A stretch of 39,658 nucleotides of DNA from contig JAFVOP010000075.1 in assembly GCA_017505745.1 (NCBI GenBank), positions 1-39,658 of the forward strand, given 5' to 3'. Origin of the DNA: Clostridia bacterium. Its GTDB lineage: Bacteria > Bacillota > Clostridia > Oscillospirales > CAG-272. The notes beneath the pieces were generated by a model, which ran no database searches, was not told the DNA's origin, and saw only the letters and a program-made list of their open reading frames with translations. Shown here one piece after another: positions 3,580 to 29,161 of this stretch. The stretch's first letter is position 1. Each line of letters starts with the position of its first letter. Both the position numbers and the translations under genes were made by a program.

Positions 3580-3608
3580 TTGACAAAGACGGAACGAGGT
3601 GATAAAAT
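3580..3608 (+). promoter_or_regulatory. Probable SigA promoter of the giant lipoprotein gene
   Basis: TTGACA at 3580-3585 is followed after 17 nt by TAAAAT at 3603-3608. A perfect TATAAT at 3610-3615 is present too but would need a 24-nt spacer. The predicted leader of about 65 nt contains the palindrome GCGCAAGCTTGCGC (3631-3644) before the ribosome binding site GGGAGG at 3666-3671. Confidence 0.7.
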
Positions 3609-3680
3609 ATATAATGAACAAATATTTTAAGCGCAAGCTTGCGCGATCATTTATTATTTCATCTTGGGAGGTTATCCGAA

Positions 3681-6600
3681 ATGAAGCAAACGAAAATCCT
3701 TTGGAGTTGCCTGTTTTGTCTGGTGGCTCTGGTGATCGGACTGACGTGCTTGAGCAGCTGTGGATTCAAATCCCTGTTCTCCAAGAACGAACCCGATACC
3801 GAGACCGAATCTGCAACGGGCGATGACTCCTGCAATCACGCATGGAGTCCGTGGGCGGTTGTAACCCCGGCTACCTGTACCGAGGGCGGTGTGCGGGAGC
3901 GCATATGCTCGAAGTGTCAGAAGCTGGAGCCCGGCAACATTGCTCCTCTGGGACACGATTGGGGCGAATGGGAAGAGACCGTTGCTCCAAGCTGTCAGGC
4001 CCATGGCGTACTGACCCGTGTTTGTAAGAACAACGATGCACACGTGGAAAGCAAGCAGACGGAGGAGCGTCAGCACGTGTTCGACCGTGAGGTTGTCGAC
4101 GCGAAGTATCTGAAATCCGAGGCTACCTGTACGGCGCGTGCGGTGTACTACAAGTCCTGTGTGTGCGGCCTGCATGAAACCGGCGACTATGCGGCGGTCT
4201 TTACGTTCGGCGCGCCTCCTGCGCACAGTGTATCGAACTGGGTAAGCATCGGAAGTGCCGGACACCGCGGCTCCTGCGAGTGCGGCAGAACCGAAACACT
4301 GCCTCACGTATGGAACGACGGTGTAACGATCAGCGAGCCCACCCATACGCAGGATGGACAAATGCTGTATACCTGTGTGGATTGCGGTGCAACCAAAACG
4401 GCGAAGCTGGCGGCCACCAAGGACCATGAATTCCCCAACGAGTGGACCATGGACGGGGACCTGCACTACCGTGAGTGCTCTTGCGGAAAGATCGAAATGT
4501 ACCCGCACGAATGGGGCGACGGTGTGATCAGCGTTGCGCCCGATTGCAGCAAAGAGGGCGTGAAGACCTATATTTGCGGCAGCGGATGCGGAGCTACCAA
4601 GGTAGTTTCGATTCCCAAGACCACCGACCACAAATATACGGTCTGCGAATACATGGATGAGGCCCTGCACACCTTGACCTGCGATTGCTGCGGAAAGGTG
4701 CTGTACCAGGATCATGATTGGCAGCGCAACGAGAAGAAGGATGTTGCTCCTACGCACGTGGCGGTTGGCGTTGAGGCCTACCTTTGTGTAGGATGCGGCG
4801 CGGAAAAGACCAAAACGGTTGCTCCCTCGGAGGAGTTGGCCAACGCGCATACCTTCAAGAACTCCTGGTTGCCCTTTGACTCCACGCACCACCGCCTGAT
4901 CTGTGATTGCGGTGAGGTGGAGCTTGCCGTTCACGAATGGGACGTTGAGGTAACGAAGGAGGCTACGCACACCGAAGAGGGTGAGCGGAGATATACCTGT
5001 AAGTGCGGCGAAACCAAAACCGAGGTTGTAGAAAAGCTGGAGGGCCATACCTTTGGTGAGTGGACCGAGGCGGAGAGTGGACACAAACGTGTCTGCGCGT
5101 GCGGCGCTTACGAGGAGGCTGAGCACGCGTGGGATGCCAAGGGTGAGATCACGCTGCAGCCCACCCACCTGTTGGAGGGTGAGATCGTCTTTACCTGTAC
5201 CGATTGCGGCGCTACCGCCGCCAAGGTGTTGGAAAAGACGAAGGAGCACACCTTTGGTGAATGGTATCACGATGAGGATCCCGACGTTCATGTGCGCAAG
5301 TGCGCGTGCGGGGAAACCGAGCGTGAGGCGCACGCCTGGGATTCCGGACGTGTAACGCTGGCTCCCACCTGCTCGAAGGAAGGTGAGCGGACGAAGATCT
5401 GCACGGTTTGCGGCGCAAAGAAGATCGAGAGCGTGGAAAAAACCGAGCATGCAAATCTGGTGTATATCTCCAAGAGCGCGCTGATCCACGAAGTAAAGTG
5501 TATGGATTGCGAAACCTCCGTTGAGGAAAAGCACGTATGGGATAACGGAAGAGAAACCAATCCCGCAACCTGTCAAAAGGGAGCGGTTTGGGTATATACC
5601 TGTAAGCTCTGCTCACATGAGGTAACCGAAGAGAAGACCGAGCTGGCCGACCATACGTACGGTGATTGGGAGATCGCGGAAAACGGCGGCTCCGTACGCT
5701 ACTGTACGGTCTGCAACGATAAGGACACCTCCGAGCACCACTGGGATCAGGGAACCGTTACAAATCCCGCTACCCATACCGGCGAAGGAACCAAGCTGTA
5801 TACCTGTACCGATGAGGGCTGCGACGCCACCTTTGAGGCATCCATCCCCAAAACTCCCGAGCATACCTATAACGTGAAGGATCCTACCAACGAGGATGCT
5901 TTGAAGAGTAAGGCCACCTGTCAGGCGTATGCCCTTTACTATTACGTCTGCGCGTGCGGACACGTCCCAACGGACGGGGATGCAACCACCTTCCCGTATG
6001 AAGAGGGCAGTCTTGCTGAGCATGTATTCCAGCGTGAAGATTTTGATCCGAAGTACATCCGAAACGAAGCAAGCTGCGGCGTTGACGCTACCTATTACAA
6101 GTCTTGTCTCTACTGTGAAGCGCACGGAACCGAGGAGTATTTTACCGAGGAAGGCTCTGCGCTGGAGCATAACTATACGGAGAGTCTGATCCCTGCCCGT
6201 TGCGGACAGAGCGGCTTGCGGACCTATACCTGCGGCAACTGCGGGGATATCCAAACCGAAGAGATCCCCGCACTGGAGCATGTTTGGGTAGAAGAGAAGA
6301 AGGCCGCCAGCTGCTTGAACGGTGGCACGTCCGGCTACATAAAGACCTACTGTAAGAATGACGGCTGTACGGCCGGCGAATACACGGAGATCCTTCCCGA
6401 GCACAGCTACCTTGTGGAGATCACCGCGGCAACCTGTACCAAGGACGGCGAAGAGCGTAGGGTGTGCACCGTGTGCGGACACGAGCCCGAGCCGATCAAG
6501 CTGGAGGCTACCGGTGAGCACGATTACAGCCGCAAGATCGTGGAAAGCGTGCAGACCTGCACCACGCCCGGTATTACCAAGTACATGTGTAAAGGGTGCG

Positions 6601-9600
6601 GCGAGTTCAAGCGCAACGAAGAGGGCACCGAGATCTACGTAGATTACGAGCCCGCGCTGGAGCACGAGCATTTTGCATACGATTACGTAGAGGCTACCTG
6701 TTTGACCCCGAAGTACAAGAGAAGCGTGTGCAAATGCGGATACGTTCTCCAATCGGTCGCTCAGGGCCAGGCAAACGGTCATAGCTGGACCGATGGCAAG
6801 AAGATCGATCCCACCTGTACCGCCGAGGGCTCGTTGGAGCAGCATTGCTCGGTCAAGGGATGCGATGCCGAGCAGACTGTACCGCTCGATAAGCTCGCGC
6901 ACGAGCTGAAGATCACGCCGGTAGCGGCAACCTGTGAAACCAACGGATATGAAGTGACCGAGTGCTCCAACTGCGACTATCGTGTAGAGAAGACAACGTC
7001 GGCCGCATTGGGACACCGCTATCCCGTAGATACCACCGTAACCGTTCCTCCCACCTGTGAGGAGGAGGGATACAAGCTTAAGACGTGTATCGGATGCGGC
7101 AAGGAAGATAAGAGCGAGGTGATCCCTCCGCTCGGACATCTTTGGGAGGTGAATGACGCCACCTGCTATACGCCCGATTACTGTGACCGCGGATGCGGCA
7201 AGGAGGGCGACGGAGCCACCGGACAGCACGTCTACGCGATTGTGGATTCCGAAACCGTAGAGGCAACCTGTGAAACCAACGGATCGCAGACCTGGCGGTG
7301 TACTACCGAGGGTTGTACGGCATCCTACACCGTAGAAACTCACGCGTTGGGTCACACGCTCGATCCTTCTACCACCGAGATTAAGACCAACACCACGGTG
7401 GGAACCGACGCGGGCTGCATTACGCAGGAGATCAAGTGCACCAAGTGCAGTGTGCCCACCTGTGGAAAGGTGGTAGAGGTTGTTTACGATTCCTACAACT
7501 CCTGTCACTACAACAAGCAGCTGACCAAGGCGGCAACCTGTCAAGTACCCGGTCTGTATACCTACACGTGTAGCGTAGAGGGCTGCGGCCATTCCTACAC
7601 CGAGGAGATTCCGGTTCCCGAGAATCCCGAGCATAAGTGGGTTGACGGCCCCCAGTCCCTGAACACTGGCAACACCAAAATCATGGTGTGTGGGTATGAT
7701 GGTTGTAAGGCTACCAAAACGGTGGTGGACGCCTCCAACGGCGTAACTGCGGATGACCTGGATAATTCCAAGGAGCTGGTGCTCGGCAACGCGTCGATCA
7801 CGCTGGACGATGCCACCAAGGAAGCCCTGAAGGAAACGGCCGGCAGCGGCTCGCTCAATCTGGCGGTGGACGCTCTGAAGGGAGAGGATCTTGGAAATCT
7901 GGTGGATCTTCCCGAGGGAAGCACCGTATACAACCTGACGATGTCGGTTGGAGAGGATCAGAATATTTCGCAGTTCGACGGCTTGGTTACCGTTCGAATT
8001 CCGTATACGTTGGAGCCCGGTGACGATCCCGATGCGATCATCATCTGGTACATCAACGATCTGGGTGAGGTTGACGAGATCAAAGCCCGCTATGTAGAGA
8101 TCGACGGAGAGGGATATGCGGAATTCCAAACCAATCACTTCTCCTATTACACCGTTACCCGTTTGACTCCCGCGCAACGCTGCGAGAAGTACGGACACTC
8201 CGTAAAGGAAGTGGTGCAAAAGGCCAACTGCCTGATCGACGGCTACGTGCTCCACGTTTGTACCCGTTGCGGAAACCGCGAAACCAAAGAGACCACCGAA
8301 GCGTACGGCCACGATTGGCAGGATACCGTGATTCCCGCCACCTGTACCACCTCGGGCTGCACGGTATCGGTTTGTCTCCGTTGTCAGCTCAAATATGAGC
8401 ACGACGCGGTAAAGGCCTTTGGTCACAGCATGCTTCATTCCGTGGAGGATAGCAAGGATGCATCCTGTGCCGAGGCGGGATATAAGCGCTATGTATGTAC
8501 CAACGAGGGGTGTGAATATACGCGCGACGTAGCGCTCGCCAAGCTGGCGCATGCATACACCAAAACGGTGATCGAGCCTACCTGTACTACCGGTGGCGTT
8601 ACCGTTTATACCTGTGAAAACTGCGGACAGAGCCACGAAAGCGCGCTTACCGTTGCCAAGGGACATCGCACGGTAGATCGGGTGGTTGCTCCCACCTGTA
8701 CCTCCGGCGGATATACCGAGCATTTCTGCGAGATCTGTAACGCCCGTTTCGAAAATACCAACGAAACCGAAAAACGCGCGCATAGCTGGAACGTCAAGGA
8801 GCCCACCTGCGGCGTGGGACAGACTTGTACCGTTTGCGGTGCTAAGGGCGCGGAAGCAACCAATGCGCACGTATACGGCAAGGATGGCCTTTGCAAAACC
8901 TGTAAAAAGGCGTGCGAGCACGAGTGGTATGACGGTGCCGTTGTGCTTCCCACCTGTGAAACCGACGGATACACCAAGCGCATTTGTCTCCATTGCGAGC
9001 AGGAATACACCGGCGAAGGCTATGAGGAATACAAGAAGCAGGAAAGCCACGGCGGACATCAGTGGATGCTGGTGGATTCCAAAACGCCTACCTGTAAAGC
9101 CAACGGATACGGCTATCGCAACAGCCGCTGTCAGCTTTGCGGAGAGACGCAAAAGGAAACCCTGGAGCCTCTGAGCCATGAGATCGTAAAGGAACACATC
9201 GCGGCAACCTGTACGGAGGACGGATACGTTCGCGAATACTGCAAGGGCTGCGGCGAAACAATGAATTCTGAGGTGCTTTCTGCCACCGGACACAAGTACG
9301 AAATTCTGGAAAAGACCGAGGTTTCCTGTGAGACCAACGGTTACAGCAAATCGAAGTGTACGGTTTGCGGCAACGTGCTGGAGGAGACCGTTGCGATGAC
9401 CGGACACAACATGGTGCTGAAATCCCATGTTGATCCTACCTGTACCAAGGAAGGCTACCAATATTTCGTTTGTCAAAATAAGCACTGTAATCATAAAGAA
9501 GAGATCACGCTGGAGAAGCTTCCGCATGCGTTTGGCGGTTGGAAGAAGTTCGACGGTGAGAGCCATGTTCGTTCCTGCAGCTGCGGAATGACCGAAACCG

Positions 9601-12600
9601 CAGAACACGCATGGGAAGAAACCAAGATCCTGGAGCATGCAACGCATCACAAGGCCGGCGAAAAGCTGCTGACCTGTGCAGACTGTAAGGCAACTGCAAC
9701 CGAGGAGATCCCGCAGATCCCGCACGAATTCGGAGATTGGGTGAACCTTGACGAAAACCGCCACGCGCGCCGTTGCGATTGCGGAGACGTGGAGTATGAT
9801 GATCACGGATGGACCGTGAAGGAGCATGTGGAGCCTACCCACTATGCGGACGGCAAGACCCTGTACGGATGTGACACCTGCGGCGCTACCCGCACCGAGA
9901 TGCATGCGCAGATCGCGCACAGCTTTGGCGAATGGATCGCGGACGGCGACGTGCATAAGCGCGTGTGCAGCTGCTCCGAAACCGAAATCCAGGACCACGA
10001 GTGGCAACTCAAGCAGCACGTGGATGCAACCTGTAAGGACGACGGAAAGGACGTATTCGTCTGCCCCGTTTGCTCGCACGAGAGAACCGAGGTTCTCCCC
10101 AAGCACGAAAATCACGATTTTGGCGATTGGTTTGACGTTGAAGGCGGACGGAAGCGCGTCTGCAAGGTTTGTGGGAAGGAAGAAACCACGATCCACACCT
10201 GGGATCAGGGTGCGGTAACCAAGGAGCCCACCTGTAAGGAGGAGGGAATCCGTACCTACACCTGTACGGTTTGCGGCGCTACCGAAACCGAAAGCATTGC
10301 AAAGAAGGATCATGTATTCGGATCCTGGACCGACTACAACGGTACCAAGCACGTGCGCGTATGCGACTGCGGTGAAGCCGAGTATGCGTCGCACGAATGG
10401 GATGCCGGAAAGGAAACGCAGGCTCCCACACATGTCAAGGAAGGCGTTCTGACCAAAACCTGTAAAGATTGTAAGGCCACGAAGGAGGAGCCGATCCAAA
10501 CGCTTCCCGGGCACGTCTTTGCAAACGGTTGGGTATCCGTGGATGACAAGAAGCATGCCCGCGAGTGCGCGTGCGGCGAGATCGAGTATGCGGAGCATTT
10601 CCGTGATCAGGTAGAAGTGATCCGCGAGGCTACCCACTACGAGAGCGGCTTGAGACTGGAGACCTGTACGACCTGCGGCGACAGTCGCGAGGTAGAGATC
10701 CCGCAGATCAAGCATGTGTTTGGCGATTGGTATGAGGTTGACGGCAAGCAGCATGCAAGAAGCTGCTCGTGTAAGGAGACCGAATACGCCGACCACGAGT
10801 GGGATGAGGGCGTGGTGGTCACTCCCGCTACCCACTTGAAAGAGGGAGAGACAACGTACACCTGCGTTACCTGCGGTGCCGAAAAGACCGAGCTTCAGGA
10901 GAAGCTGGATGGTCACAGCTACAAGGAGACCAATCGCGTAGAGCCTACCTGTACCAAGGATGGCCGCGTGACCTACACCTGTGCATGTAAGGAGAGCTAC
11001 ACCGAAATCCTCAAGGCGCCCGGACACAGCTACGGAGACGGTGGCGCATGCACCGTGTGCGGAGAAAAGTTGCCCGAGGAGGGTGAATGCAATCACTCCA
11101 ACCTCGATTCCTTGAAGATCGAGACCGAATTTTTGACCAACGTGCATACCTGCAGCCAGGGTGTACGCGTGCGCTACGTTTGCCCGACCTGCGGAGAGAC
11201 GGTAAAAACCGAGGTGCATTTCAGCCACGACTACGAGGTTCAAGAGATCGATATGGCGGAATGCGGCTGTCCTTGCGAGGGCGCTCAGCTGATCATCGAT
11301 GCTTGTCGCTTCTGTGGCAGGGGAGACGCACATTTTGAAAGCGGATGTCGGTACTATAGTCAAGACGAGATGTACGTCGATTACGAGACCGGAATCCGTC
11401 ATCGCGTAATGACCCTCACCTGCGAGGAGCACAACTGGTCGTATCAGATCGACGAACAAATCGGCGAGGTCGTTGTGGGATGCGAATCTCGCATCGAAAC
11501 TGTCTATACGTTCGGCTTGAACTCCAAGCCGATGAAGATCACTCTTACGCATGTGCAAAGCCAGCACGAAACCGTAGGAAATACCTCCGAGTCGATTGAC
11601 ATGGAAACCGACGGGGACGGCAAGGAATGGCGCACCGTTACCCAGATTTACGAGAGCCGCTGTGCGAAGTGCGGCGCCCTTCTCGAGATCCGGACAATTA
11701 AGATACGCTACAACGAAGAGAACCTTCCGTTCTGGGCCTATATGCAGGAAAAGGTTCCCATGGATCCCTATAATAAAGAATGTAACGAGTTTATCATTAC
11801 AGGGGAGGCATATCAGGAGGCCGAATATGAGATCAGTGAAAGCGGCGAACCGATCTCCAGTCGCATGCGGATGCGCATGATCCAATACGCCCCCGACGGC
11901 AGCGTGCAATACGTGGAGGTAACGGAACAGCACGTAGATGCCAACGCGTACCGTACGTATGAGTCGGTTTCGATCTACGTTCCCATAAATGGGGAAGAGG
12001 TCCTGATCAATCAGGAGGAAACCACCTATTGCAACATTATCCGCACGGACGGTCATGTAGAGAATCTTCCCACCAAACGGGTAACGTCTCAGTATCAGGA
12101 AAACGGCGAGCTGACGTACAGCGCAACCGAGATCTGGGAATACACCACGTTTGAAGGCAATGATTGCAAGCTGCACATCAAGCACACGCTTCCCGACGGA
12201 ACCGTGGAGGAAGAGATGCGGTATCAGCACGGCGACACCGAGATTACCTATTCCTTTGAGGGTGATGAGCAAAACTGCGAAAGCGGCTATCGCGTGAACC
12301 ATGTATGTCAGGATTGCGGCGAGGTCACGATGAGCTATGTGGAATACGGTCACCGCTGTGAGGATGAGTACATTGACCTGTACGAGCTGGGCTGCCACTG
12401 TGGCGGCAAGGCTTACGTCTCAAAGTGCACCGTTTGTGGATATACCTCGGGTGAAGTGAGTCTGGGATGTAAGCTGCAGACGGAATCCAAGAACGTTGGC
12501 TACGACGAGGCAGGCAATCTGCACGTTACCGTTGTTTTCGTTTGCGAGGGCTGTGGCTTCCGTTATTCCGTTGAGGAATGGACGGTAAGAGAAAACTGCA

Positions 12601-15600
12601 CGGGCTACCGCTACGAGATCTATCGCTTGGGTCTTTCCGAGGACGGAAGCGAGGCCAAGAAGGAGTTTACTCTCCGCACGATGACGGAAAAGACCGAGCA
12701 CTCCTGGAACACCGAGGTTCTGAGCAGCGAGACCAAGACCGAGGTGGATGCGGACGGACGTACGGTAACCGTAACGCTTCTTGAAGAAAAGGTCTACTGT
12801 ACGGCCTGTGGCAACGGCTCCAAGCATACGCTGACCGAAACCAGGATCGACGAAAACGGCAATCTGCTCTACAAGTCGGTTTCCGAATTCGGGGTGGATT
12901 CCGATACCGACGAGTCCTATGTGATCCGCAAAACGATCATGGAGTATACGCTTGCAACTCCTGCAAACGAAGCCCCCTTCTATTATCTCTCCCTGAAGCT
13001 GGTGAATACCTACGACCGTGCGGGCGACGTGTTGATGTTCGACCGTTACACCTACACCTATCGAAACGGAGACTACTGTCATCTGGAGGAGAGCTATACG
13101 AATAGCGCCGGACTTGGCTTTGGCGGAACCACCACCACGCACAGAGGCGAAAGCACTACGACGGAGTTCCTCAACGGCGAGAACTGCGAGACGGGTGTGA
13201 TCGTGAAGCACTTCTGCACAAGCTGCGGCGAAACGATTGCTACCGATACCTATTACCATCATATCACAGAGGGTAAGACCGTAGATCTGAGCCAGTACGG
13301 CAATAAGTGCGGAACCACCGTATATGTGGGCGTTTGTCCTTGCGGCCGCTCCATGGATTGGTGGTTTGAAAAGCACAATTGCTCTTTTGAGTCCTCTTAC
13401 AAGTGCGTAGAGGGAGAGGATGGCTTCTCCCATGACGTTCACACCTTTGTTTGCACCCAGTGCGGATTTACCTACGTAGAGGAGATGTGGTCGGAGAAAA
13501 CGGAGGGCTCCTGCGTATTTGTCGATCATCACGTGATCCGCTTTGGCACGCAGTCTACCGAGAGCGAGCCCTACGTGGTGGAGACCGAGGTCGTCACGGA
13601 GAACCACTCGTTGATGCACCAGATCATTGTGGATGAGTTTACGGAGAGGGTTACGGAAACGGGCGCAACCGTGCAGGTACATACGTATGAAGCTGCATAT
13701 GTATGCCGGACCTGCGGATACTCCGAGAATCGTGAGAGAACCGTAACCGAGACCGATGCCAACGGCTTGGTGCTGTCCAAATATCACGCCTCCTATGCTG
13801 TGGAAAACGGGAAGGAATTCCTGTATATGGAATCCACACACACCTATGGTACGGCTGCAAATGAGGACGGAAGCTTCTTTACTTACCAGCTGGGATACAC
13901 CTGCTCGTATTATTCGGCTTCCGGTGAGAAGACGAACGGATGGACTGACGTTTATAGCTACACCGAGGGGAACTACTGTGTATATACCGTCACCACTACC
14001 GATTTCTACGGAAAGGAAACTACCGTGGAGAAGACTGCTCACGGCAAGACCGAGCCTCACTACGAGCTTGTAGAAAATGCCTCGAGCTGTGAGGACGGTG
14101 TGATCCAGAAGATCGTTTGCGTCAGATGTAACGAGGTTCTTTCCACAAAGACCCATTATTCGCACCTTACCGTATCGAAGCGCACCGACCTCTCTGAGTA
14201 CGGAGCCGTTTGCAAAGGATACATTCAGCTGTATAGCTGTATCTGCGGTCAGGAGCGCTCGATCCGGTTCTCCAACAACTGCAAAGCGATGCAAGAGGAC
14301 CTGAGCTACGAGCAGGACGGTGTTCACCATCAAAAAACGCGCTATACCTGTACCGATCCCAACTGCGGATTTGTGTACACCTATGAGTATTGGTACGAGA
14401 TTGATGAGGATTGTGAGCAGACCTATTACGAGCGCTACAGCCTGGGCGTTGATGAGGACGGTGGTGCGCTTGAGGAGATCGGAATCAAGAAAGAAAATGG
14501 GTACAGTCACTCGCTGCAGCCCGAAACGATCTCTCAATCGAAGACCACCGAAACCGATGCCAACGGCAATGAGCTGACGGTAGAGGTGCTGGAGGAGCGC
14601 TTGGTTTGCTCGAACTGTCAGTTGATGCAGAGTCATGTAAAGACCGTTCGAAAGACCGATGCCAACGGCAATGAGCTGTATTTCTACCGCGGCAACTATG
14701 CATACGATGAGGAGAACGAGCCTTATCTGGAAAGCGAAGAGGAGATCTCCTACATCCTGCGTACGCTTGCGAACGGGGAGCAGATGCTCTATACCGAATG
14801 TCGTACCTGTTCGAGCTATGATTCCAATCAGAATCAGACGGATTTCGAACGCCACACCTATCATTATTCCGAGGGTGATTTCTGTACGTACACGGTTACC
14901 CACGAGTATATGGGCGGAAAGGAATATGAGGAAACGGTTTCCGAGCATGCGAAGATCGAAATCACACAAACGCTTCTCGAAGGGGCTACCGACTGTAAGG
15001 AAGGATGGATCTATCGCGAGATCTGCGAAGCCTGCGGAAAGGTGACCTACGAGGATACTCGCTACGGACATGAGACCTATCCGAGAACCGTAGAGATGAC
15101 GCCCTACGGTGCTGTATGCGGCGGACATATTGTGATTCATTCCTGTGCATGTCATTACAAGTCGAGTGTGAATATCCTTTTGGGATGTAATTTTGAGGCA
15201 ACTACCGAACGAGTTCCTCAGGAGGACGGAGGTACCCGTACCTATTATTATTACACCTGTACAAACGAGGCTTGCGGATTCCGTTATGTAAGAGAGGTCT
15301 GCAATGAATACGATGCCTCCTGCAACCGCATCAACCGCACGCGCTATGCATTCGGTCTGGATGCCGAGAACAATGCGGCCTACGAATTTTCGTATCAGAG
15401 AATTACCGGAAACAATCACTCCTTTAGCTACGGTGCGGTTTCTACGGAGACCTCTACCGAGACCGATGCCAACGGCGCTCTTCTGAACGTAAAGATAGAA
15501 AAGCACCAAAGCATTTGCGAGCGTTGCGGATTGGTTGGATCGCAGGACTACATGCTGAAAACCGAAAAGACCGATTCCAACGGCAACGTGGTAGAGGTTA

Positions 15601-18600
15601 CGGAGGAGCATTACGGTGTATCCGGTGAATCCACCTATCTGCAAACGGTGTACCGGTACAAATACGTTGCGGTTCTCCTGCAGGACGGCACGTATCGCAC
15701 CTATCCTACACTGGAATCCTACGATCATTACTATGAAAACGGGGAGAAGTCCGAGTGGTGGAAGCACGAGTATACGTACGGAGAAAACAACTTCTGTATG
15801 TATACCGATGCCTACACCTCCTCGTACGGAGAAGCGTACATCAATGAGTATATCAATCACAGCGAACTGACGGACCGCTACGAATTCCTGAATGCATCCA
15901 ACCGTTGCAGTGACGGCGTACGGATCACAGAAACCTGTAGCGCTTGCGGCGAGCAGGTGAATGAGTACAATACCTACAGTCACTCCTATGATGTCAAATC
16001 CGTTCACGACCTGAGCGAGATCGGCAATGCATGCGGCGGTTGGATGACCGTGAGCGACTGTACGCGTTGCGAGTATGCAAGCATGGATTACCACTTCTAT
16101 TGCTCGATGACGGAATCGCAAACGCTCTACGAGCTCGACGAGAACGGACGCGAGCATGAGATCTGGTCTTATGAGTGCGAAAGCTGCGGCTTCAAATACA
16201 CACGCGAGGCCAAATACGTGGTTGTGGATCAGTGCTACGTAACGCAAACCCAAACGTACTCCTTCGGCATTGATGAGAATGGCGAACCCAAGTTACTGGT
16301 AGTCACCACTCCCACCTATTGGACCGATCACAACACCGAGCATTCGTCCACCGATACCGTGGAATCTACCGAAATCGATGAGAACGGCAACACCCTGACC
16401 GTGCGCACCTGGGAAAACAAGTGGCAGTGCACGAAGTGTGGATGGACGGAAAGCCGTTACGCATACGTCGAAAAGCTGGATGCCAACGGAATCATGCGGT
16501 ACTCTGCTGAGCAACGCTACAACACGCGTGGTGAAACCCCCTATGTGGAGTACGAATGGATTCAATATTACAACGAGGAAGGTCAACAGTACAAGACCGA
16601 GGAAAACCACTACACGTCCGATGGCAACGGGGAGTTCTATCTGTCGCAAAAGAACGTGTCGGAATATGAATCGGTCCGCCGCGCGGACGGAAGCAATCGA
16701 CAACTGCTGCTCTCGCGAGTATATGCTTCCTATAACAGTGCGGGCGAGCAGGTTAGCGGCGAGGTTTACACCTATGTGTATGCCGACGGTGATCCGTGCA
16801 ACCGTACCGAAACCTATACCGATTTCTACGGAAATGTCACCGAAAACCAGCAGACCGAGCATAGCGAGTATATCACCGTTTACGAGCTGGCAGAGGGCTC
16901 GGTTACCTGTGTGGACGGTGTGATCCAAAAGACGGTTTGCCGCGATTGCGGATATGAGATCGGACGAAACACCTATTATTCGCACTATTCCTTCTGGGAT
17001 GAACAAAGCTTTGCCACGTCCTGCGGAACGATTCATCTTTCGATCTATCGCTGCGCATGCGGGCAGAACTTCTCGGATTCGATCGGTACGTCGGGCTGTG
17101 ACTTCTCGAGCAACCGGACTTACGAGACCGATCCCAACGGCAACGAGCACGAGCTGATTACCTACACCTGCAGAAATTGCGGATTCGTTTACGTACGCGA
17201 TATCTGGTCGGAATACAGCGAAAGCTGTGAGCAGATGCGCTATACCCACTGCACGTTGACGGTGGACGGTCTGACCGTGTTCGACCGTTTGGTATCCCGT
17301 AACTGCGGAGTGTCGCACAATTCCGAAATCACCTCCAACGAGCCTACGGAGGAGGAGATCGACGGACTGCGTGTGGTAACCACCGAAAGCGCCACCACCT
17401 GCACGCGTTGTAACAAGCTTCTCCATACACAAACAACGGTAGAGTCCTTTGATGCGCAGGATCGCCTGATCAGCCGCGAGGAGATCCGTAAGGATCTCAA
17501 CGTTGAGGTGGAGGGAGGCCTGTACGAGGCGTACCGTAACAAATACGTGTACGGATACTACACCCTTTCCAACGGAATGGAAATCTGCTATCCTGTCCTG
17601 GAGCTCTATGCCGACTACAACGCGGACGGCACTCCCTGGAGCTATACGCATTACGAGTACACCTATCCCACCGCGGGTGATTTCTGCCATTCGATCCGAA
17701 CCCGCATCGATGTTGAAGGTAACGAAACCGCCGAGGAATACGAATCTCACGTTCATCACTCCGGGAAGTACGTGCTTTCCGAGGGAAGCGTTACCTGCGA
17801 GGACGGATTGGACCGTATCGAGTACTGTACGCTTTGTAAGGAAGAGCTGTATCGCCATGAGAACTGGACCAAAGGACACGTGATCGATCGCGAGAACGCC
17901 ATCGAGACCGTGGATCTGAGCGCATACGGCGCAGTTTGCGGTGCGTATGCCGAAATCTACGCTTGCCCGTGTCTGGCCCGTCAGTCGTTGTCAGTGGAGG
18001 CCGAGTGTCTGTTTGACTCCAACTACTACAGCTACGAGGACCCCGTAACCCAACAGGTGCACGGTGGATACCTCTACACCTGCGCAGTCACCGATCCCAC
18101 GCTTTGCGGTTTCCGTTATCTGCATTTGGAGTATACCGAGACCGATGAAAAGTGCAACGGCTATGATCACACGCTTTATCTGTTCGGATTTGATCCCGAG
18201 ACCCTTACATACGGGGAAAAATGGGAGAACGTCTATGCAAACGGACGGACCATGCACCATATGGTGAATACCACCACAACGTCCGAAACGGACGGCAGAA
18301 CCGTGGAGGAGAACACCACCGCCTGCGAATATTGCGGTATGCTTCGGGAGACTTACCGGTATACCTACTACACCGAAGACGGTGTGGATAGGTACGATTG
18401 GGAGCACTTCAGATATAATACCGAGGATATCGATCACAACTATCTGCTCCGCTACAACCTGCAGAAGAGCCGGATGCAGGTGAGCGAAAGAGGTGCATCT
18501 CGATACGTGTGTGTTCTTGATCTGATGGAGTATTACGATGAAGCCGGCCAGAAGATCGATTGGACGCGCTACGAATACGATTACAGTACATCCAACTGTC

Positions 18601-20033
18601 ATCCGATTTGCACGTACACCGATATAAACGGAGCAAACGAGATTTCGGAGGGCACCGATCACTGGTGGCATTCGAATGACAATGAGTGGAAGGACGGCCG
18701 TCCCGCCACCTGTACGCAGGACGGTATCTGCATCGAGCACTGCTACAACTGCGAGGAAACGCAGGAGTCTTACCATTCACGCCGTTGTCACTCCTACGGG
18801 TATGACAGCACCCTCGGCTGCTACGTTTGCTACCATTGCGGTCTTGAAAATCTCACCGGCGCCGATGGCTACGTTGAGCTGGAAGACCTGAGCAGCCGTT
18901 GGGGCGACGGTACCGAGTATCTTGTTGGCTTCTATAATCCGCATTTCCGCGACTACCTGATTGGACTCTATCTTGTGGTTGGCGAAGAGGAATACGATCT
19001 GAGTATAGAGCCCGTTGTGGAGGAAACGCTGATTGCGATCAACGTGCAAGCGGTGCTGGATGCGGCAGCGGAACTGGGACTGGATGCTTGCGCGTATATG
19101 ATCCGCGTAACCTTCATTCCGCTCAACGTGGATGAGGTATACGATTTTGCGATCACGCTCGATCCTCACGTTTACAAGGTGGATGATGCAAACTGCATCA
19201 TCCCCGAGGACGTATGTGATGCACATACGGTAATGGCGTATCGGTGTGAGCTTTGCGATCATACCTACAAGACCTCTGTGTATACCGGTCATTATTGGGA
19301 GAGCCATGACATCAGATTCCCGGATTCCTGCGGCGGTGAATTGACGCTCTATTTCAACGAATGCCGGGTCTGCGGCGATCAGATTTGGGGAGGATATTCC
19401 AGCAATTGCCGGCTGGAGACAGAAGAGCTGGAGCGCGAGGAGGGTGACGGCATGAGCCGTTCTCTGTACAAATATTCCTGCTCGGTTTGCGGAATCTCCT
19501 TCCTCTGCGAAGTCACGAATACCGAGATAGCCGGTTGTAAGCGCCGTCAAACAGAGACACTTTCTTGGGATTTGACCGAGGACGGCACCTATGCCAAGAG
19601 TAAAACTCTGGTTTCCGTCAATCCGAACCATGAATGGGAGCAGATCCTGATCGATGAGACCGTTGAGACTGACGAAAACGGAAATACGGTACGTAAACAA
19701 ACGTACGAGCACCGTTGCTCCGAGTGCGAACTTCTGGAATCGACCGTGGATCATGTCTACGTATCCGATGCGGACGGCGTAACGATCCGCGAGGAGGAGT
19801 GGTCAAAGCCTATAGCGTCCGATGGCGGCCGTAACGTTTACGAATATTTCATGGGCGAGAACGGACAACGCTACATGAAAACACAGATTTGGGAAAGCTA
19901 CGATCTTTCCGGAAATCTGACCGGCGGATGGAAGGTTATGCACGAGTATAACTTTGAAACCATGGTCCGTACGTCTACGTACTATGATTTCCACGGAAAC
20001 GTTACCGACGTAAGAACCAACTGTTTCTCGTGA
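3681..20033 (+). CDS. Giant (5450-residue) Cys-knuckle repeat lipoprotein
   Basis: One open frame of 16.35 kb. I chose the ATG at 3681 over the upstream in-frame ATG at 3639 because GGGAGG lies 9 nt before it and the protein then starts with a clean type II signal peptide: positive N-terminus, hydrophobic core, and lipobox LSSC with lipidated Cys27. A short Thr/Glu stretch (about residues 37-43) leads into repeats. Residues about 51-1347 and 1497-2469 are two arrays of short Cys-pair units, separated by a beta-rich domain (1348-1496). Residues about 2470-5450 are nine copies of a module of about 300 residues. I see no LPxTG motif, S-layer homology domain, transmembrane segment or enzyme motif, so it should be an extracellular lipid-anchored protein. 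Similar short Cys units occur widely as one or a few copies in clostridial surface proteins and have no established function; an array this long is unusual. It is apparently monocistronic, with its own promoter and terminator. Role unknown: metal binding, adhesion or a surface fibre are possible. Confidence 0.9.
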   Translation: MKQTKILWSCLFCLVALVIGLTCLSSCGFKSLFSKNEPDTETESATGDDSCNHAWSPWAVVTPATCTEGGVRERICSKCQKLEPGNIAPLGHDWGEWEETVAPSCQAHGVLTRVCKNNDAHVESKQTEERQHVFDREVVDAKYLKSEATCTARAVYYKSCVCGLHETGDYAAVFTFGAPPAHSVSNWVSIGSAGHRGSCECGRTETLPHVWNDGVTISEPTHTQDGQMLYTCVDCGATKTAKLAATKDHEFPNEWTMDGDLHYRECSCGKIEMYPHEWGDGVISVAPDCSKEGVKTYICGSGCGATKVVSIPKTTDHKYTVCEYMDEALHTLTCDCCGKVLYQDHDWQRNEKKDVAPTHVAVGVEAYLCVGCGAEKTKTVAPSEELANAHTFKNSWLPFDSTHHRLICDCGEVELAVHEWDVEVTKEATHTEEGERRYTCKCGETKTEVVEKLEGHTFGEWTEAESGHKRVCACGAYEEAEHAWDAKGEITLQPTHLLEGEIVFTCTDCGATAAKVLEKTKEHTFGEWYHDEDPDVHVRKCACGETEREAHAWDSGRVTLAPTCSKEGERTKICTVCGAKKIESVEKTEHANLVYISKSALIHEVKCMDCETSVEEKHVWDNGRETNPATCQKGAVWVYTCKLCSHEVTEEKTELADHTYGDWEIAENGGSVRYCTVCNDKDTSEHHWDQGTVTNPATHTGEGTKLYTCTDEGCDATFEASIPKTPEHTYNVKDPTNEDALKSKATCQAYALYYYVCACGHVPTDGDATTFPYEEGSLAEHVFQREDFDPKYIRNEASCGVDATYYKSCLYCEAHGTEEYFTEEGSALEHNYTESLIPARCGQSGLRTYTCGNCGDIQTEEIPALEHVWVEEKKAASCLNGGTSGYIKTYCKNDGCTAGEYTEILPEHSYLVEITAATCTKDGEERRVCTVCGHEPEPIKLEATGEHDYSRKIVESVQTCTTPGITKYMCKGCGEFKRNEEGTEIYVDYEPALEHEHFAYDYVEATCLTPKYKRSVCKCGYVLQSVAQGQANGHSWTDGKKIDPTCTAEGSLEQHCSVKGCDAEQTVPLDKLAHELKITPVAATCETNGYEVTECSNCDYRVEKTTSAALGHRYPVDTTVTVPPTCEEEGYKLKTCIGCGKEDKSEVIPPLGHLWEVNDATCYTPDYCDRGCGKEGDGATGQHVYAIVDSETVEATCETNGSQTWRCTTEGCTASYTVETHALGHTLDPSTTEIKTNTTVGTDAGCITQEIKCTKCSVPTCGKVVEVVYDSYNSCHYNKQLTKAATCQVPGLYTYTCSVEGCGHSYTEEIPVPENPEHKWVDGPQSLNTGNTKIMVCGYDGCKATKTVVDASNGVTADDLDNSKELVLGNASITLDDATKEALKETAGSGSLNLAVDALKGEDLGNLVDLPEGSTVYNLTMSVGEDQNISQFDGLVTVRIPYTLEPGDDPDAIIIWYINDLGEVDEIKARYVEIDGEGYAEFQTNHFSYYTVTRLTPAQRCEKYGHSVKEVVQKANCLIDGYVLHVCTRCGNRETKETTEAYGHDWQDTVIPATCTTSGCTVSVCLRCQLKYEHDAVKAFGHSMLHSVEDSKDASCAEAGYKRYVCTNEGCEYTRDVALAKLAHAYTKTVIEPTCTTGGVTVYTCENCGQSHESALTVAKGHRTVDRVVAPTCTSGGYTEHFCEICNARFENTNETEKRAHSWNVKEPTCGVGQTCTVCGAKGAEATNAHVYGKDGLCKTCKKACEHEWYDGAVVLPTCETDGYTKRICLHCEQEYTGEGYEEYKKQESHGGHQWMLVDSKTPTCKANGYGYRNSRCQLCGETQKETLEPLSHEIVKEHIAATCTEDGYVREYCKGCGETMNSEVLSATGHKYEILEKTEVSCETNGYSKSKCTVCGNVLEETVAMTGHNMVLKSHVDPTCTKEGYQYFVCQNKHCNHKEEITLEKLPHAFGGWKKFDGESHVRSCSCGMTETAEHAWEETKILEHATHHKAGEKLLTCADCKATATEEIPQIPHEFGDWVNLDENRHARRCDCGDVEYDDHGWTVKEHVEPTHYADGKTLYGCDTCGATRTEMHAQIAHSFGEWIADGDVHKRVCSCSETEIQDHEWQLKQHVDATCKDDGKDVFVCPVCSHERTEVLPKHENHDFGDWFDVEGGRKRVCKVCGKEETTIHTWDQGAVTKEPTCKEEGIRTYTCTVCGATETESIAKKDHVFGSWTDYNGTKHVRVCDCGEAEYASHEWDAGKETQAPTHVKEGVLTKTCKDCKATKEEPIQTLPGHVFANGWVSVDDKKHARECACGEIEYAEHFRDQVEVIREATHYESGLRLETCTTCGDSREVEIPQIKHVFGDWYEVDGKQHARSCSCKETEYADHEWDEGVVVTPATHLKEGETTYTCVTCGAEKTELQEKLDGHSYKETNRVEPTCTKDGRVTYTCACKESYTEILKAPGHSYGDGGACTVCGEKLPEEGECNHSNLDSLKIETEFLTNVHTCSQGVRVRYVCPTCGETVKTEVHFSHDYEVQEIDMAECGCPCEGAQLIIDACRFCGRGDAHFESGCRYYSQDEMYVDYETGIRHRVMTLTCEEHNWSYQIDEQIGEVVVGCESRIETVYTFGLNSKPMKITLTHVQSQHETVGNTSESIDMETDGDGKEWRTVTQIYESRCAKCGALLEIRTIKIRYNEENLPFWAYMQEKVPMDPYNKECNEFIITGEAYQEAEYEISESGEPISSRMRMRMIQYAPDGSVQYVEVTEQHVDANAYRTYESVSIYVPINGEEVLINQEETTYCNIIRTDGHVENLPTKRVTSQYQENGELTYSATEIWEYTTFEGNDCKLHIKHTLPDGTVEEEMRYQHGDTEITYSFEGDEQNCESGYRVNHVCQDCGEVTMSYVEYGHRCEDEYIDLYELGCHCGGKAYVSKCTVCGYTSGEVSLGCKLQTESKNVGYDEAGNLHVTVVFVCEGCGFRYSVEEWTVRENCTGYRYEIYRLGLSEDGSEAKKEFTLRTMTEKTEHSWNTEVLSSETKTEVDADGRTVTVTLLEEKVYCTACGNGSKHTLTETRIDENGNLLYKSVSEFGVDSDTDESYVIRKTIMEYTLATPANEAPFYYLSLKLVNTYDRAGDVLMFDRYTYTYRNGDYCHLEESYTNSAGLGFGGTTTTHRGESTTTEFLNGENCETGVIVKHFCTSCGETIATDTYYHHITEGKTVDLSQYGNKCGTTVYVGVCPCGRSMDWWFEKHNCSFESSYKCVEGEDGFSHDVHTFVCTQCGFTYVEEMWSEKTEGSCVFVDHHVIRFGTQSTESEPYVVETEVVTENHSLMHQIIVDEFTERVTETGATVQVHTYEAAYVCRTCGYSENRERTVTETDANGLVLSKYHASYAVENGKEFLYMESTHTYGTAANEDGSFFTYQLGYTCSYYSASGEKTNGWTDVYSYTEGNYCVYTVTTTDFYGKETTVEKTAHGKTEPHYELVENASSCEDGVIQKIVCVRCNEVLSTKTHYSHLTVSKRTDLSEYGAVCKGYIQLYSCICGQERSIRFSNNCKAMQEDLSYEQDGVHHQKTRYTCTDPNCGFVYTYEYWYEIDEDCEQTYYERYSLGVDEDGGALEEIGIKKENGYSHSLQPETISQSKTTETDANGNELTVEVLEERLVCSNCQLMQSHVKTVRKTDANGNELYFYRGNYAYDEENEPYLESEEEISYILRTLANGEQMLYTECRTCSSYDSNQNQTDFERHTYHYSEGDFCTYTVTHEYMGGKEYEETVSEHAKIEITQTLLEGATDCKEGWIYREICEACGKVTYEDTRYGHETYPRTVEMTPYGAVCGGHIVIHSCACHYKSSVNILLGCNFEATTERVPQEDGGTRTYYYYTCTNEACGFRYVREVCNEYDASCNRINRTRYAFGLDAENNAAYEFSYQRITGNNHSFSYGAVSTETSTETDANGALLNVKIEKHQSICERCGLVGSQDYMLKTEKTDSNGNVVEVTEEHYGVSGESTYLQTVYRYKYVAVLLQDGTYRTYPTLESYDHYYENGEKSEWWKHEYTYGENNFCMYTDAYTSSYGEAYINEYINHSELTDRYEFLNASNRCSDGVRITETCSACGEQVNEYNTYSHSYDVKSVHDLSEIGNACGGWMTVSDCTRCEYASMDYHFYCSMTESQTLYELDENGREHEIWSYECESCGFKYTREAKYVVVDQCYVTQTQTYSFGIDENGEPKLLVVTTPTYWTDHNTEHSSTDTVESTEIDENGNTLTVRTWENKWQCTKCGWTESRYAYVEKLDANGIMRYSAEQRYNTRGETPYVEYEWIQYYNEEGQQYKTEENHYTSDGNGEFYLSQKNVSEYESVRRADGSNRQLLLSRVYASYNSAGEQVSGEVYTYVYADGDPCNRTETYTDFYGNVTENQQTEHSEYITVYELAEGSVTCVDGVIQKTVCRDCGYEIGRNTYYSHYSFWDEQSFATSCGTIHLSIYRCACGQNFSDSIGTSGCDFSSNRTYETDPNGNEHELITYTCRNCGFVYVRDIWSEYSESCEQMRYTHCTLTVDGLTVFDRLVSRNCGVSHNSEITSNEPTEEEIDGLRVVTTESATTCTRCNKLLHTQTTVESFDAQDRLISREEIRKDLNVEVEGGLYEAYRNKYVYGYYTLSNGMEICYPVLELYADYNADGTPWSYTHYEYTYPTAGDFCHSIRTRIDVEGNETAEEYESHVHHSGKYVLSEGSVTCEDGLDRIEYCTLCKEELYRHENWTKGHVIDRENAIETVDLSAYGAVCGAYAEIYACPCLARQSLSVEAECLFDSNYYSYEDPVTQQVHGGYLYTCAVTDPTLCGFRYLHLEYTETDEKCNGYDHTLYLFGFDPETLTYGEKWENVYANGRTMHHMVNTTTTSETDGRTVEENTTACEYCGMLRETYRYTYYTEDGVDRYDWEHFRYNTEDIDHNYLLRYNLQKSRMQVSERGASRYVCVLDLMEYYDEAGQKIDWTRYEYDYSTSNCHPICTYTDINGANEISEGTDHWWHSNDNEWKDGRPATCTQDGICIEHCYNCEETQESYHSRRCHSYGYDSTLGCYVCYHCGLENLTGADGYVELEDLSSRWGDGTEYLVGFYNPHFRDYLIGLYLVVGEEEYDLSIEPVVEETLIAINVQAVLDAAAELGLDACAYMIRVTFIPLNVDEVYDFAITLDPHVYKVDDANCIIPEDVCDAHTVMAYRCELCDHTYKTSVYTGHYWESHDIRFPDSCGGELTLYFNECRVCGDQIWGGYSSNCRLETEELEREEGDGMSRSLYKYSCSVCGISFLCEVTNTEIAGCKRRQTETLSWDLTEDGTYAKSKTLVSVNPNHEWEQILIDETVETDENGNTVRKQTYEHRCSECELLESTVDHVYVSDADGVTIREEEWSKPIASDGGRNVYEYFMGENGQRYMKTQIWESYDLSGNLTGGWKVMHEYNFETMVRTSTYYDFHGNVTDVRTNCFS
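3831..7721 (+). repeat. Short Cys-knuckle repeat array I (in-frame, residues about 51-1347)
   Basis: By eye about 34 Cys-pair knuckles (CxxCG, CxCG or CxxxxC). The usual unit is: His plus aromatic residue, spacer, [A/P]-T-[C/H], a Gly four residues later, Y-x-C-x-x-C-G, a run ending in Ile/Val, then the next His. A second flavour (H-x-R-x-C-x-C-G-x-x-E then H-x-W) alternates with the first in part of the array, giving a compound unit of about 70 residues. At the DNA level codons such as ACC-TGT-ACC recur, but the copies are clearly diverged. Confidence 0.85.
7722..8168 (+). other. Beta-rich spacer domain inside the giant lipoprotein (residues 1348-1496)
   Basis: This segment has no cysteine and breaks the knuckle array. 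It has alternating hydrophobic strands, including TVRIPYTLEPGDDPDAI, then WYINDLGEVDE, and ends in HFSYYTVTRL. That closing pattern resembles beta-sandwich domains found in S-layer and other surface proteins of Bacillota, which often end in H-[FL]-S-x-Y. The family assignment is by resemblance only. Confidence 0.6.
8169..11087 (+). repeat. Short Cys-knuckle repeat array II (in-frame, residues about 1497-2469)
   Basis: The knuckle repeats resume right after the spacer domain, with roughly 28 more Cys pairs. The two-flavour compound unit is most regular between about 9500 and 10920, where H-x-F-G-[D/E/S]-W begins each unit. The array ends with HSYGDGGACTVCGEKL, the same closing motif type as HTYENGKCSVCG in the lipoprotein at the right edge of the window. 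Confidence 0.85.
11088..20030 (+). repeat. Nine tandem modules of about 300 residues (in-frame, residues about 2470-5450)
   Basis: An anchor of the form D-L-S-x-Y-G-x-x-C-G recurs near nt 11249, 12374, 13284, 14187, 15093, 16008, 17005, 17912 and 19308. Spacing is mostly 903-915 nt, about 302 residues, with longer first, sixth and eighth intervals. Each full module also carries C-x-x-C-G-F-x-Y with a following acidic/aromatic stretch, a T-E-T-D-x-N-G segment, C-x-x-C-G or C-x-x-C, a Y-x-Y-x-x-G-[D/N]-x-C stretch, a T-D-x-x-G-x-x-T stretch, and a closing Y-x-x-x-H. The last copy is truncated. Confidence 0.85.
18867..19173 (+). other. Inserted cysteine-poor segment between modules 8 and 9 (residues about 5063-5164)
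   Basis: The eighth anchor interval is about 1396 nt, not about 905. The extra length is largely this segment, which has one Cys, strands such as YLVGFYNPHF and LIGLYLVVGEEEY, and a helix-like Ala/Leu-rich stretch. I do not recognise a family. It may be a second spacer or a small ligand-binding beta domain. Confidence 0.5.
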
Positions 20034-20051: not shown

Positions 20052-20095
20052 CGAGCACGGCTCCAAGGAAGCAATTCCTTGGAGCCGTGCTTTTG
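20052..20095. terminator. Bidirectional intrinsic terminator (giant gene / recG)
   Basis: A perfect stem pairs 20054-20068 with 20077-20091, extends two more pairs inward and closes on GCAA, a GNRA tetraloop. A T-run follows on the plus strand and an A-run precedes it (T-run on the minus strand), so it can end transcription of both convergent genes. Confidence 0.92.
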
Positions 20096-25987: not shown

Positions 25988-26959
25988 ATGAAACAGACCC
26001 AAATCAAATGGATTGCTTGTATGCTGCTTTGCGCCATGCTTTTGGCAATGCTTGGCGGATGCATCCAATTGGTGGACCCACCCATGGAAACCGAATCGGA
26101 ATCCCTCTCCGAAGAAGAAACTAAAACGGAAACCGAATCAGAGACAGAAACCGAAACGGAAACAGAGACGGAGACGGAAACGGAAACAGACACAGAAACA
26201 GAGACCGAAACCGAAACAGAGACAGAGACAGAGACGGAAACCGAGACCGAAACAGATACAGAAACGGAGACGGAAACAGAGACAGAGACGGAAACCGAGA
26301 CCGAAACGGAGACCGAGACGGAAACCGAAACCGAAACAGAGACCGAGACGGAAACCGAAACCGAAACAGAGACCGGATCAACTCCGGACGGAGAGCGGAT
26401 CAAGATCTACATCGACCAAGGGCACAACCCCTCGGGGCATCACAACGCAGGCGCACAGGGGAACGGCCTCTTTGAGGAGAACGTTACCTATGCCGTTGGC
26501 ATCGCGCTTGCCGCGCTTTTGGAGGCCGACGGACGCTTTGAGGTGCGGCTGTCCCGTCCCACGCCAGAAACGGTGCTGGGCAGTGATAACACCTCCAGCT
26601 TAAAGGCCCGTACCGATGATGCCAATGCTTGGGGAGCCGATTATTTTGTCAGTGTCCACGCCAACTGGTTTGATCTCGAAACGGCAAACGGCATCGAGGC
26701 CTTTACATTTTCAAACGCGGGCGAGGCGTATGCGCTTGGAAGTAAGATCGTGGAGCAGCTCGTTTCGGCAACGGGACTTGCCAGCCGCGGTATGAAAACG
26801 CGAACCGACCTGTACGTCCTTAAAAACACCGTCATGCCCGCCGTTTTGGTGGAGCTCGGTTTTTTGACCAACCCCACCGACGCAGCGCTTATGGGATCGA
26901 GACCCGAGCTGTTTGCACAGGGAATCTACAATGGGATCACGGGGTATTTTCAATCATGA
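25988..26959 (+). CDS. Lipoprotein N-acetylmuramoyl-L-alanine amidase with Thr-Glu tether
   Basis: A 323-residue protein. Residues 1-25 form a type II signal peptide with lipobox LGGC and lipidated Cys25. Residues 45-129 are almost purely alternating Thr-Glu with a few Asp or Ser substitutions. Residues 138-323 are an Amidase_3 domain with zinc ligands H146 (DQGHN), E163 (FEEN) and H224 (SVHAN) and catalytic E289 (VELGF). The likely job is membrane-anchored cleavage of peptidoglycan, with the acidic tether spanning from the membrane into the wall. AAGGAA lies about 8 nt before the ATG. It has its own consensus promoter and a strong terminator. The catalytic domain is a close paralogue of the preceding gene, including shared RLSRPTPET and DANAWGADYF stretches. 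Confidence 0.93.
   Translation: MKQTQIKWIACMLLCAMLLAMLGGCIQLVDPPMETESESLSEEETKTETESETETETETETETETETDTETETETETETETETETETETDTETETETETETETETETETETETETETETETETETETETGSTPDGERIKIYIDQGHNPSGHHNAGAQGNGLFEENVTYAVGIALAALLEADGRFEVRLSRPTPETVLGSDNTSSLKARTDDANAWGADYFVSVHANWFDLETANGIEAFTFSNAGEAYALGSKIVEQLVSATGLASRGMKTRTDLYVLKNTVMPAVLVELGFLTNPTDAALMGSRPELFAQGIYNGITGYFQS
26120..26374 (+). repeat. Imperfect hexanucleotide repeat encoding a Thr-Glu tract
   Basis: About 42 copies of a GARACN-type hexamer (GAGACN or GAAACN) in frame. Because the period is a multiple of three, unit gain or loss by slippage would change tether length without a frameshift. All six frames stay open here, which produces spurious reading frames on both strands. 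Confidence 0.9.
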
Positions 26960-28960: not shown

Positions 28961-29006
28961 GTTGTTTGACCGTACCTTTCCAAAAAAATAAAGATAGTTA
29001 CCTTTT

Positions 29007-29035
29007 ATTATACAGTATTTTACTCCTTCTTGCAA
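29007..29035 (-). promoter_or_regulatory. SigA-type promoter of lepA
   Basis: Minus strand: TTGCAA (29030-29035), 17 nt, TATAAT (29007-29012), about 45 nt before the GTG start. This also argues against any start upstream of 29000. Confidence 0.78.
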
Positions 29036-29117
29036 GAGCTTTGCAATATTTTTCTCTAAAAAAAGAAAATAGAAGTTGCTCATAGCAATAAATGTCTCAA
29101 AAAAAGCAAAACATATC

Positions 29118-29146
29118 TTGAAAAGAGACAGAAAATGCGCTATACT
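29118..29146 (+). promoter_or_regulatory. SigA-type promoter of the oxidoreductase gene
   Basis: TTGAAA (29118-29123), 17 nt, TATACT (29141-29146). Predicted transcript start is near 29153, giving a leader of about 85 nt. Confidence 0.75.
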
Positions 29147-29161
29147 GAATACACAGGATCC

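Follow-up and report, generated by a model that had tools for sequence, protein, structure and literature searches.

Several described systems come close to the protein reported here. The proteins Giant1-5 of Apilactobacillus kunkeei are likewise bacterial and extracellular, with 3000-8000 aa, and some are limited to a few related species; Giant1-4 have predicted β-solenoid domains, and there is no mention of cysteine units or of a lipid anchor in the abstract (PMC12863079). Staphylococcal Aap is reported to be a long tandem-repeat surface protein for which zinc matters; it consists of G5 and E repeats and has an LPXTG-type anchor (PMC9802226). Cohesin- and dockerin-bearing surface proteins of gut Clostridia and the knuckles of rubredoxins and zinc fingers in the PDB complete the comparison. 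Here we describe a predicted lipoprotein of 5450 residues from an uncultured gut Clostridia bacterium, encoded in a window of 39,658 nucleotides (the whole stretch of DNA that was analysed), and set it against these systems.

Gene and assembly

The window corresponds to positions 1-39658 of contig C69 in a metagenome-assembled genome (2.34 Mb, 121 contigs, 87% complete). The gene for the giant lipoprotein occupies 3681..20033 (+) and is, as a first-pass annotation of this DNA had stated, a single uninterrupted frame of 5450 residues, with one terminal stop and none internal. The mature chain has a computed mass of about 612 kDa and a net charge of about -453, and the protein contains 313 cysteines (5.7%) and 221 histidines. 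There is no N in the window and the longest exact direct repeat of the gene has 24 nt, and because no exact repeat reaches 25 bases, collapsed repeats are unlikely.

The expression and export signals lie where they had been placed before, with the promoter to be called promoter-like. This site (3580..3608, +), TTGACA-17-TAAAAT with a TG preceding the second hexamer, matches the consensus at 11 of 12 positions and is functionally putative. The ribosome binding site GGGAGG (3666..3671, +) stands 9 bases 5' of the ATG at 3681, and a pattern on the translation identifies a lipoprotein signal peptide (3681..3761, +) with the lipobox LSSC, in which Cys27 is predicted to be lipidated. An intrinsic terminator with an 18-pair stem and a T-rich tail (20053..20092) lies in the 82 bases that separate the gene from a convergent recG-like gene. 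Since the scan returned fewer promoter-like sites (6 against 12.8 expected from shuffles) and fewer terminator-like sites (10 against 14.5) than shuffled sequence, both calls depend on place and quality, not on numbers.

Long antisense frames of 1277-2701 aa face giant genes in the window (5613-12398 and 12420-16253, both -) and at L046. We rejected the antisense genes opposite the giant gene, for instance the 2261-aa frame at 5613-12398 (-), as a by-product of codon bias: the frames arise because TTA, CTA and TCA codons are avoided (together 6 of 5450), and 95 of 200 synonymous resamplings of the gene gave an antisense frame of equal or greater length.

Anatomy of the protein

Behind the lipobox, an acidic Thr/Glu-rich tether read by eye (aa 28-52; 3762..3836, +) resembles the tethers of two further lipoproteins predicted in this window. 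Profile matches then define a first block of A-type and B-type cysteine units (aa 53-1340; 3837..7700, +) and a second block of short units (aa 1500-2480; 8178..11120, +). Between them lies a 140-aa domain without cysteine (aa 1353-1492; 7737..8156, +), which has HFSYY near its end and was aligned over seven proteins (alignment A7). The remainder is made up of nine long modules, located with a module profile: module 1 (aa 2488-2862) at 11142..12266, module 2 at 12267..13187, module 3 at 13188..14084, module 4 at 14085..14987, module 5 at 14988..15896, module 6 at 15897..16901, module 7 at 16902..17789, module 8 at 17790..18704 and module 9, the last of the protein, at 19209..20030 (all +). A terminal degenerate unit with a CGLEN-EDL domain (aa 4994-5170; 18660..19190, +; alignment A2, four proteins) is placed before the last long module and has 62% identity to its best relative. 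The earlier description of the protein as almost entirely cysteine repeats is mostly right; the exceptions are the 140-aa domain and most of aa 5060-5165.

Four pieces spanning the whole protein were compared with Pfam-A and NCBIfam, and nothing scored above a curated cut-off; the architecture check proposed in the first-pass annotation thus returned no curated family that fits. These scans gave no cohesin, dockerin, solute-binding or G5 match and no recognised head domain, and the C-terminus, TNCFS, has no sorting signal.

The type A unit follows the pattern HxW ... PT[C/H] ... G ... C-x-x-C-G ... H and the type B unit the pattern HxF..W ... H.R.C-x-C-G ... H, and the two frequently alternate along the chain. 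Profiles seeded from units of the giant protein and iterated over it and six related proteins found 52 A-type and 14 B-type matches at i-E < 0.05; when the protein was shuffled five times, 0-2 A matches were obtained, a control that covers A only. Two A matches coincide with B matches, and the distinct places therefore number 64: the two short-unit blocks contain 56, and the other eight, mostly degenerate, lie in the long-module region. The earlier figure of more than 60 short units is thus reached only when the weak ones are counted. In the short-unit-bearing proteins that we scanned, the giant protein and its relatives, no curated Pfam or NCBIfam family covers the units.

The long modules have about 270-375 residues and pairwise identities of 24-33%, and nine of their 13 invariant columns are cysteine. 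Each scores between E 5e-83 and 2e-109 against the nine-module profile, a circular result because the profile was made from them; their number, as claimed before, is borne out by the shared invariant columns and by matches in other genomes. The start of the module resembles a degenerate A unit, with a weak profile comparison (hhalign probabilities of 34.5% and 45.3%).

One relative, the giant of genome G018, helps to judge the integrity of the array. Window residues 4702-5007 pair with residues 920-1232 of G018 at 48% identity, against 28% for the next best, and two further C-terminal modules have position-specific partners there (40 against 33% and 35 against 25%). For earlier modules the pairing is less clear, since several have one best partner in common and the G018 protein breaks off where its contig ends. 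The same comparison gives pN/pS values of 0.50-0.65 for the modules and 0.35 for the terminal domain, synonymous change being saturated. Could the gene be an assembly chimera or a functionless, decaying array? A metagenome-assembled source in 121 contigs invites the suspicion, yet the C-terminal modules matched by position, the pN/pS values, the absence of N and of exact repeats reaching 25 nt, and an uninterrupted 4557-aa cousin in the same genome render this explanation extremely improbable. The collapse or breakage that the first-pass annotation had named as the danger to its reading is likewise made unlikely by the repeat lengths, the absence of an internal stop and C-terminal modules matched in another species.

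The domain with the HFS motif was found by profile in 37 of 196 genomes searched (window 7737-8156, L086-L115), and by reading the motif is present in 25 of 30 domain copies, among which are three of the seven proteins used to build the profile. HFS-x-Y recalls what we take to be the autoproteolysis sites of ZU5/FIIND domains, with cleavage presumably occurring in FIIND. A relationship to ZU5/FIIND received no support from Pfam (best E 0.065, to an unrelated family) or from the PDB, where the best match (E 0.031) covers a different part.

Metal or disulfides

Extracellular cysteine-rich repeats are mostly disulfide-bonded, and by this general rule disulfides formed after export would turn the array into a disulfide-rigidified adhesin rod. 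Metal ligands, on the other hand, exchange cysteine for histidine while the partner cysteines are kept, which disulfides do not. We therefore compared the ligand slots of the A units using 283 matches at i-E < 0.01 in 29 frames, of which 261 span the slots. At slot 13, the first ligand, 185 units have Cys, 62 His and 14 another residue, so that histidine makes up 62 of the 76 non-Cys residues; in the window protein all 41 are either Cys (31) or His (10). The later CxxC cysteines are retained in all 261 units, in part because the profile selects them. A histidine follows 12-13 residues after the last cysteine in 162 of the 261, and within 26 residues in 249, compared to 52% of random 26-residue windows.

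The B units show a related pattern. Among the 67 of 69 that were counted, 52 combine the His with CxC, nine have no His and CxxC, five have His and CxxC, and one is different. Nine of the ten units without that His have CxxC, and the association of His with CxC has a Fisher p of 5e-8 over the first three classes, the units not being independent of each other. Regular expressions for a Cys/His quartet matched at 51 A-type starts (mean of 6.2 and at most 14 in shuffles) and 13 B-type starts (mean of 0.5, at most 4), overlaps being possible in both counts. By these sequence statistics the units have the four Cys/His positions and the Cys/His interchange of zinc knuckles. In PDB searches the units matched zinc proteins and rubredoxins, the matches being short and weak (best E 0.006).

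We also searched the genus for enzymes of disulfide formation. Each of four families, DsbA, DsbB, VKOR and Thioredoxin_4, was found in 0 of 35 genomes, only nine of which are at least 90% complete with at most 5% contamination; in 14 control genomes the same search was positive in 8, 6, 3 and 9, respectively. DsbA or VKOR homologues are reported from some Clostridia (PMC12453122), which would suit the disulfide rod. Because histidine replaces cysteine at one slot and the four families were not found, metal is favoured over disulfides: we consider the units more likely to be metal-coordinated than disulfide-bonded, and the rod held by disulfides is in our judgement unlikely. The word knuckle in the first-pass annotation is upheld by these results and sharpened to a probable metal knuckle.

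There is a reported tendency of obligate anaerobes to keep cysteine out of the proteins that they export (PMC12453122). The amidase lipoprotein of the window fits such avoidance, all three of its cysteines being in the signal peptide and lipobox; a VanY-like protein with two more cysteines further along speaks against it.

Relatives and distribution

The giant gene had been treated as isolated. This does not hold: it stands at the long extreme of a family whose members have overlapping domain sets, and it is the longest open frame among the matches listed in the unit, module and HFS searches. In the same genome, C106 encodes an uninterrupted cousin of 4557 aa with a lipobox-like FGAC that fails the strict pattern, C103 a second cousin of at least 1069 aa that is cut by the contig end, and C19 a protein of 710 aa in which a cohesin-like head is followed by units, a membrane segment read by eye and a tail. 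Elsewhere we found the G018 giant (at least 2222 aa), a 2254-aa relative with a lipobox at L084 in genome G002, a 2442-aa relative at L053 with a dockerin-like N-terminus by eye, a 2775-aa relative in G319, an open frame of 5087 aa in G024 and one of 3359 aa at L081 in G027. In the G319 protein, 75 residues of the N-terminal region match dockerin 3ul4 (E 0.002). The G319 and L053 giants carry the HFS domain and long modules as the giant lipoprotein does. The gene is thus not unique, and one relative, G018, has matching C-terminal modules. Named records among the relatives bear the labels roe deer, water deer and sheep colon, and one is labelled an Oscillospiraceae genome; isolate and sample names link the relatives' RGIG genomes to a short-read study, as it is described in PMC8199421, from which they probably come.

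Short units are common close to this genome and less so further away: they are present in 85 of 118 nearby genomes, against 11 of 299 genomes drawn from the phylum, three of these 11 within the order, and both counts include the genome of the window. For the long modules, a single-protein query detected 3 genomes of 60 and a nine-row profile 3 of 394 drawn from the order, once more with that genome included. These are undercounts, as the 60-genome search missed G002, whose L084 protein has seven module matches, and the 394-genome search scored at most five candidates per genome. A phage or plasmid origin was considered and rejected: a 203-aa stretch of short units matched nothing among 50,697 phage records and, weakly, two hypothetical proteins among 72,556 plasmids, and the terminal domain had no confirmed relative among viral contigs.

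By eye, the giant gene is flanked by a divergent beta-galactosidase-like gene (lacZ) and the convergent recG-like gene. When 16 window frames, some of them on the wrong strand, were compared with 11 loci at nine places, the only match at E 1e-10 was a beta-galactosidase in L051 with 24% identity, and no conserved neighbourhood was found.

Further genes of the window were noted in passing. A lipoprotein with an Amidase_3 domain (25988-26959, +) adjoins a second amidase gene and has a tether of about 95 residues, nearly all Glu/Thr, that is encoded by a 6/30/54-base tandem repeat. On the minus strand, reading by eye indicates a LepA-like GTPase gene (27140-29194), a ROK-type sugar kinase gene (30387-31346) and a sulfatase gene with the motif CSPAR (31388-32881). 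Another predicted lipoprotein (39123-39656, +), which combines an acidic ETETES tether with a short cysteine unit, HTYENGKCSVCG, is cut by the contig end. Downstream of the G018 giant, L052 6908-14186 encodes a membrane-like protein and two proteins that match Camelysin (TasA-like), the match being below the cut-off for one and just above it for the other (1712 aa); these are possible extracellular matrix genes.

Domains found beside the units

Twenty regions with unit-bearing matches hold 21 frames with at least three units, and 13 of these, chosen by size, were scanned against Pfam. Two contain cohesin (E 6.3e-8, above the cut-off, and 0.0019, below it), the weaker one together with a dockerin just above the cut-off (7.1e-5). 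Leucine-rich repeats occur in four of the 13, a Listeria-Bacteroides repeat just above the cut-off in one, and in another a solute-binding match below the cut-off accompanies a COMMD8 helical match above it that is likely spurious. In five, L084 included, Pfam recognised no surface head.

In C19 a weak cohesin match (E 0.0017, below the cut-off) is followed by units and then the membrane segment; a PDB search with this cohesin-like head returned nothing. At L053 (1789-11284) the gene directly preceding that of the dockerin giant codes for a cohesin-like protein (E 0.0004, below the cut-off), which has eight A and two B matches, partly overlapping, and a membrane segment at its C-terminus; a lipoprotein encoded downstream combines a trypsin-like domain with five A matches. 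The cohesin-like protein and the giant are a possible attachment pair with units on both partners. Two dockerin matches are present on contig C109 of the giant lipoprotein's own genome.

Solute-binding-like tails were seen on C106, L081 and G018 (E 0.0045, 0.0021 and, for TIGR03850, 0.0003; all below cut-off), that of G018 following a proline-rich linker; PDB searches with the tail found nothing. The C-termini of three giants, L046, L081 and L049, share one solute-binding-like domain below curated cut-offs (alignment A6). We examined loss of a C-terminal head by truncation and rejected it, as L084, G319 and L053 also end without a tail and no more than 82 bases lie between the giant gene and recG; the tail is taken as optional in the family. 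Its presence in three cousins, one from the same genome, suggests carbohydrate capture; the window protein does not have it.

The units occur with cohesin, dockerin, leucine-rich, protease and solute-binding-like domains, a mixture to be expected of a spacer, and to judge from their company they look like a generic spacer. This arrangement also bears on the idea that the protein is a metal sponge, in which roughly 60 or more sites on a single chain store or buffer zinc or iron for the cell. The Cys/His quartets, well above shuffles for both unit types, would be suited to it; against it, units also stand in short arrays beside unrelated heads, as structural sites would, and the immediate neighbours of the gene are lacZ- and recG-like, not metal genes. 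We regard storage as very unlikely.

Proposed mechanism

We are inclined, with modest confidence, to see the giant protein as a lipid-anchored, zinc-stabilised surface stalk that carries the long modules past the cell wall. The chain would be exported by the general pathway and kept in the membrane by lipidation of Cys27, with the acidic tether leading from the anchor into 56 tiny units. Most units would offer four ligands, namely the Cys or His of the first slot, the CxxC or CxC cysteines and a His that lies early in the following unit. A single metal ion, with zinc the likeliest candidate, would shut each of these units in place of a hydrophobic core or a disulfide. Folding could then proceed by metal capture, unit after unit. 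Stacked head to tail, the units may form a long rod-like spacer; if a unit spans 2-3 nm, which is an assumption, the two blocks alone would exceed 100 nm. The size, the single anchor signal and the cysteine-unit build claimed in the first-pass annotation are supported; its filament is, like the rod, a putative shape. This spacer would display the nine long modules and the terminal domain outside the wall, where the long modules may bind an outside target such as plant polysaccharide, mucus or another cell.

Alternatively, the arrays of adjacent cells could zip together in a zinc-dependent manner, as in a homophilic intercellular adhesin. Metal-binding units are compatible with this, and Aap, itself a long repeat protein, is reported to form zinc-dependent homophilic bonds (PMC9802226); since the giant protein has no G5 family match in Pfam-A or NCBIfam, we hold it to be quite unlikely.

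More generally, and only tentatively, we propose that strict anaerobes lacking disulfide enzymes use tandem metal knuckles as a substitute for disulfides, in a zinc-clamped spacer that bears cohesins, dockerins, proteases, leucine-rich adhesins and solute-binding domains. If this is true, a 612-kDa lipoprotein with about 60 or more sites would mark the extreme, and ambient zinc could set how stiff it is or how far it reaches.

Comparison with known systems

The significance of the locus is that a protein with 313 cysteines is predicted to be exported in a genus where none of the four disulfide-enzyme families searched for was found. Should the units be metal-clamped, they would represent a different route to rigid extracellular proteins, and a common one nearby, as the count of 85 of 118 genomes indicates. 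They would also give a family name to surface proteins now called hypothetical and offer a spacer module. A search of open-licence papers found no description of such units, of such a lipoprotein or of a metal-knuckle lipid-anchored stalk.

With the gut-Clostridia cohesin and dockerin surface proteins the giant lipoprotein shares the short units, and with the G319 and L053 giants, which have dockerin-like N-termini, also the HFS domain and the long modules; it differs from them in that it has a lipobox and matches neither cohesin nor dockerin. The knuckles of rubredoxins and zinc fingers have in common with the units a Y-x-C-x-x-C-G turn, the match being weak and covering only about 9-19 residues. 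Compared to Aap, the giant lipoprotein has neither a G5 match nor a sorting signal, and while zinc is reported to join two Aap molecules (PMC9802226), here it would sit within each unit. Known kinds already include giant surface proteins and long stalks made of repeats, and we rate the proposed lipid-anchored metal-knuckle stalk as a variant of them.
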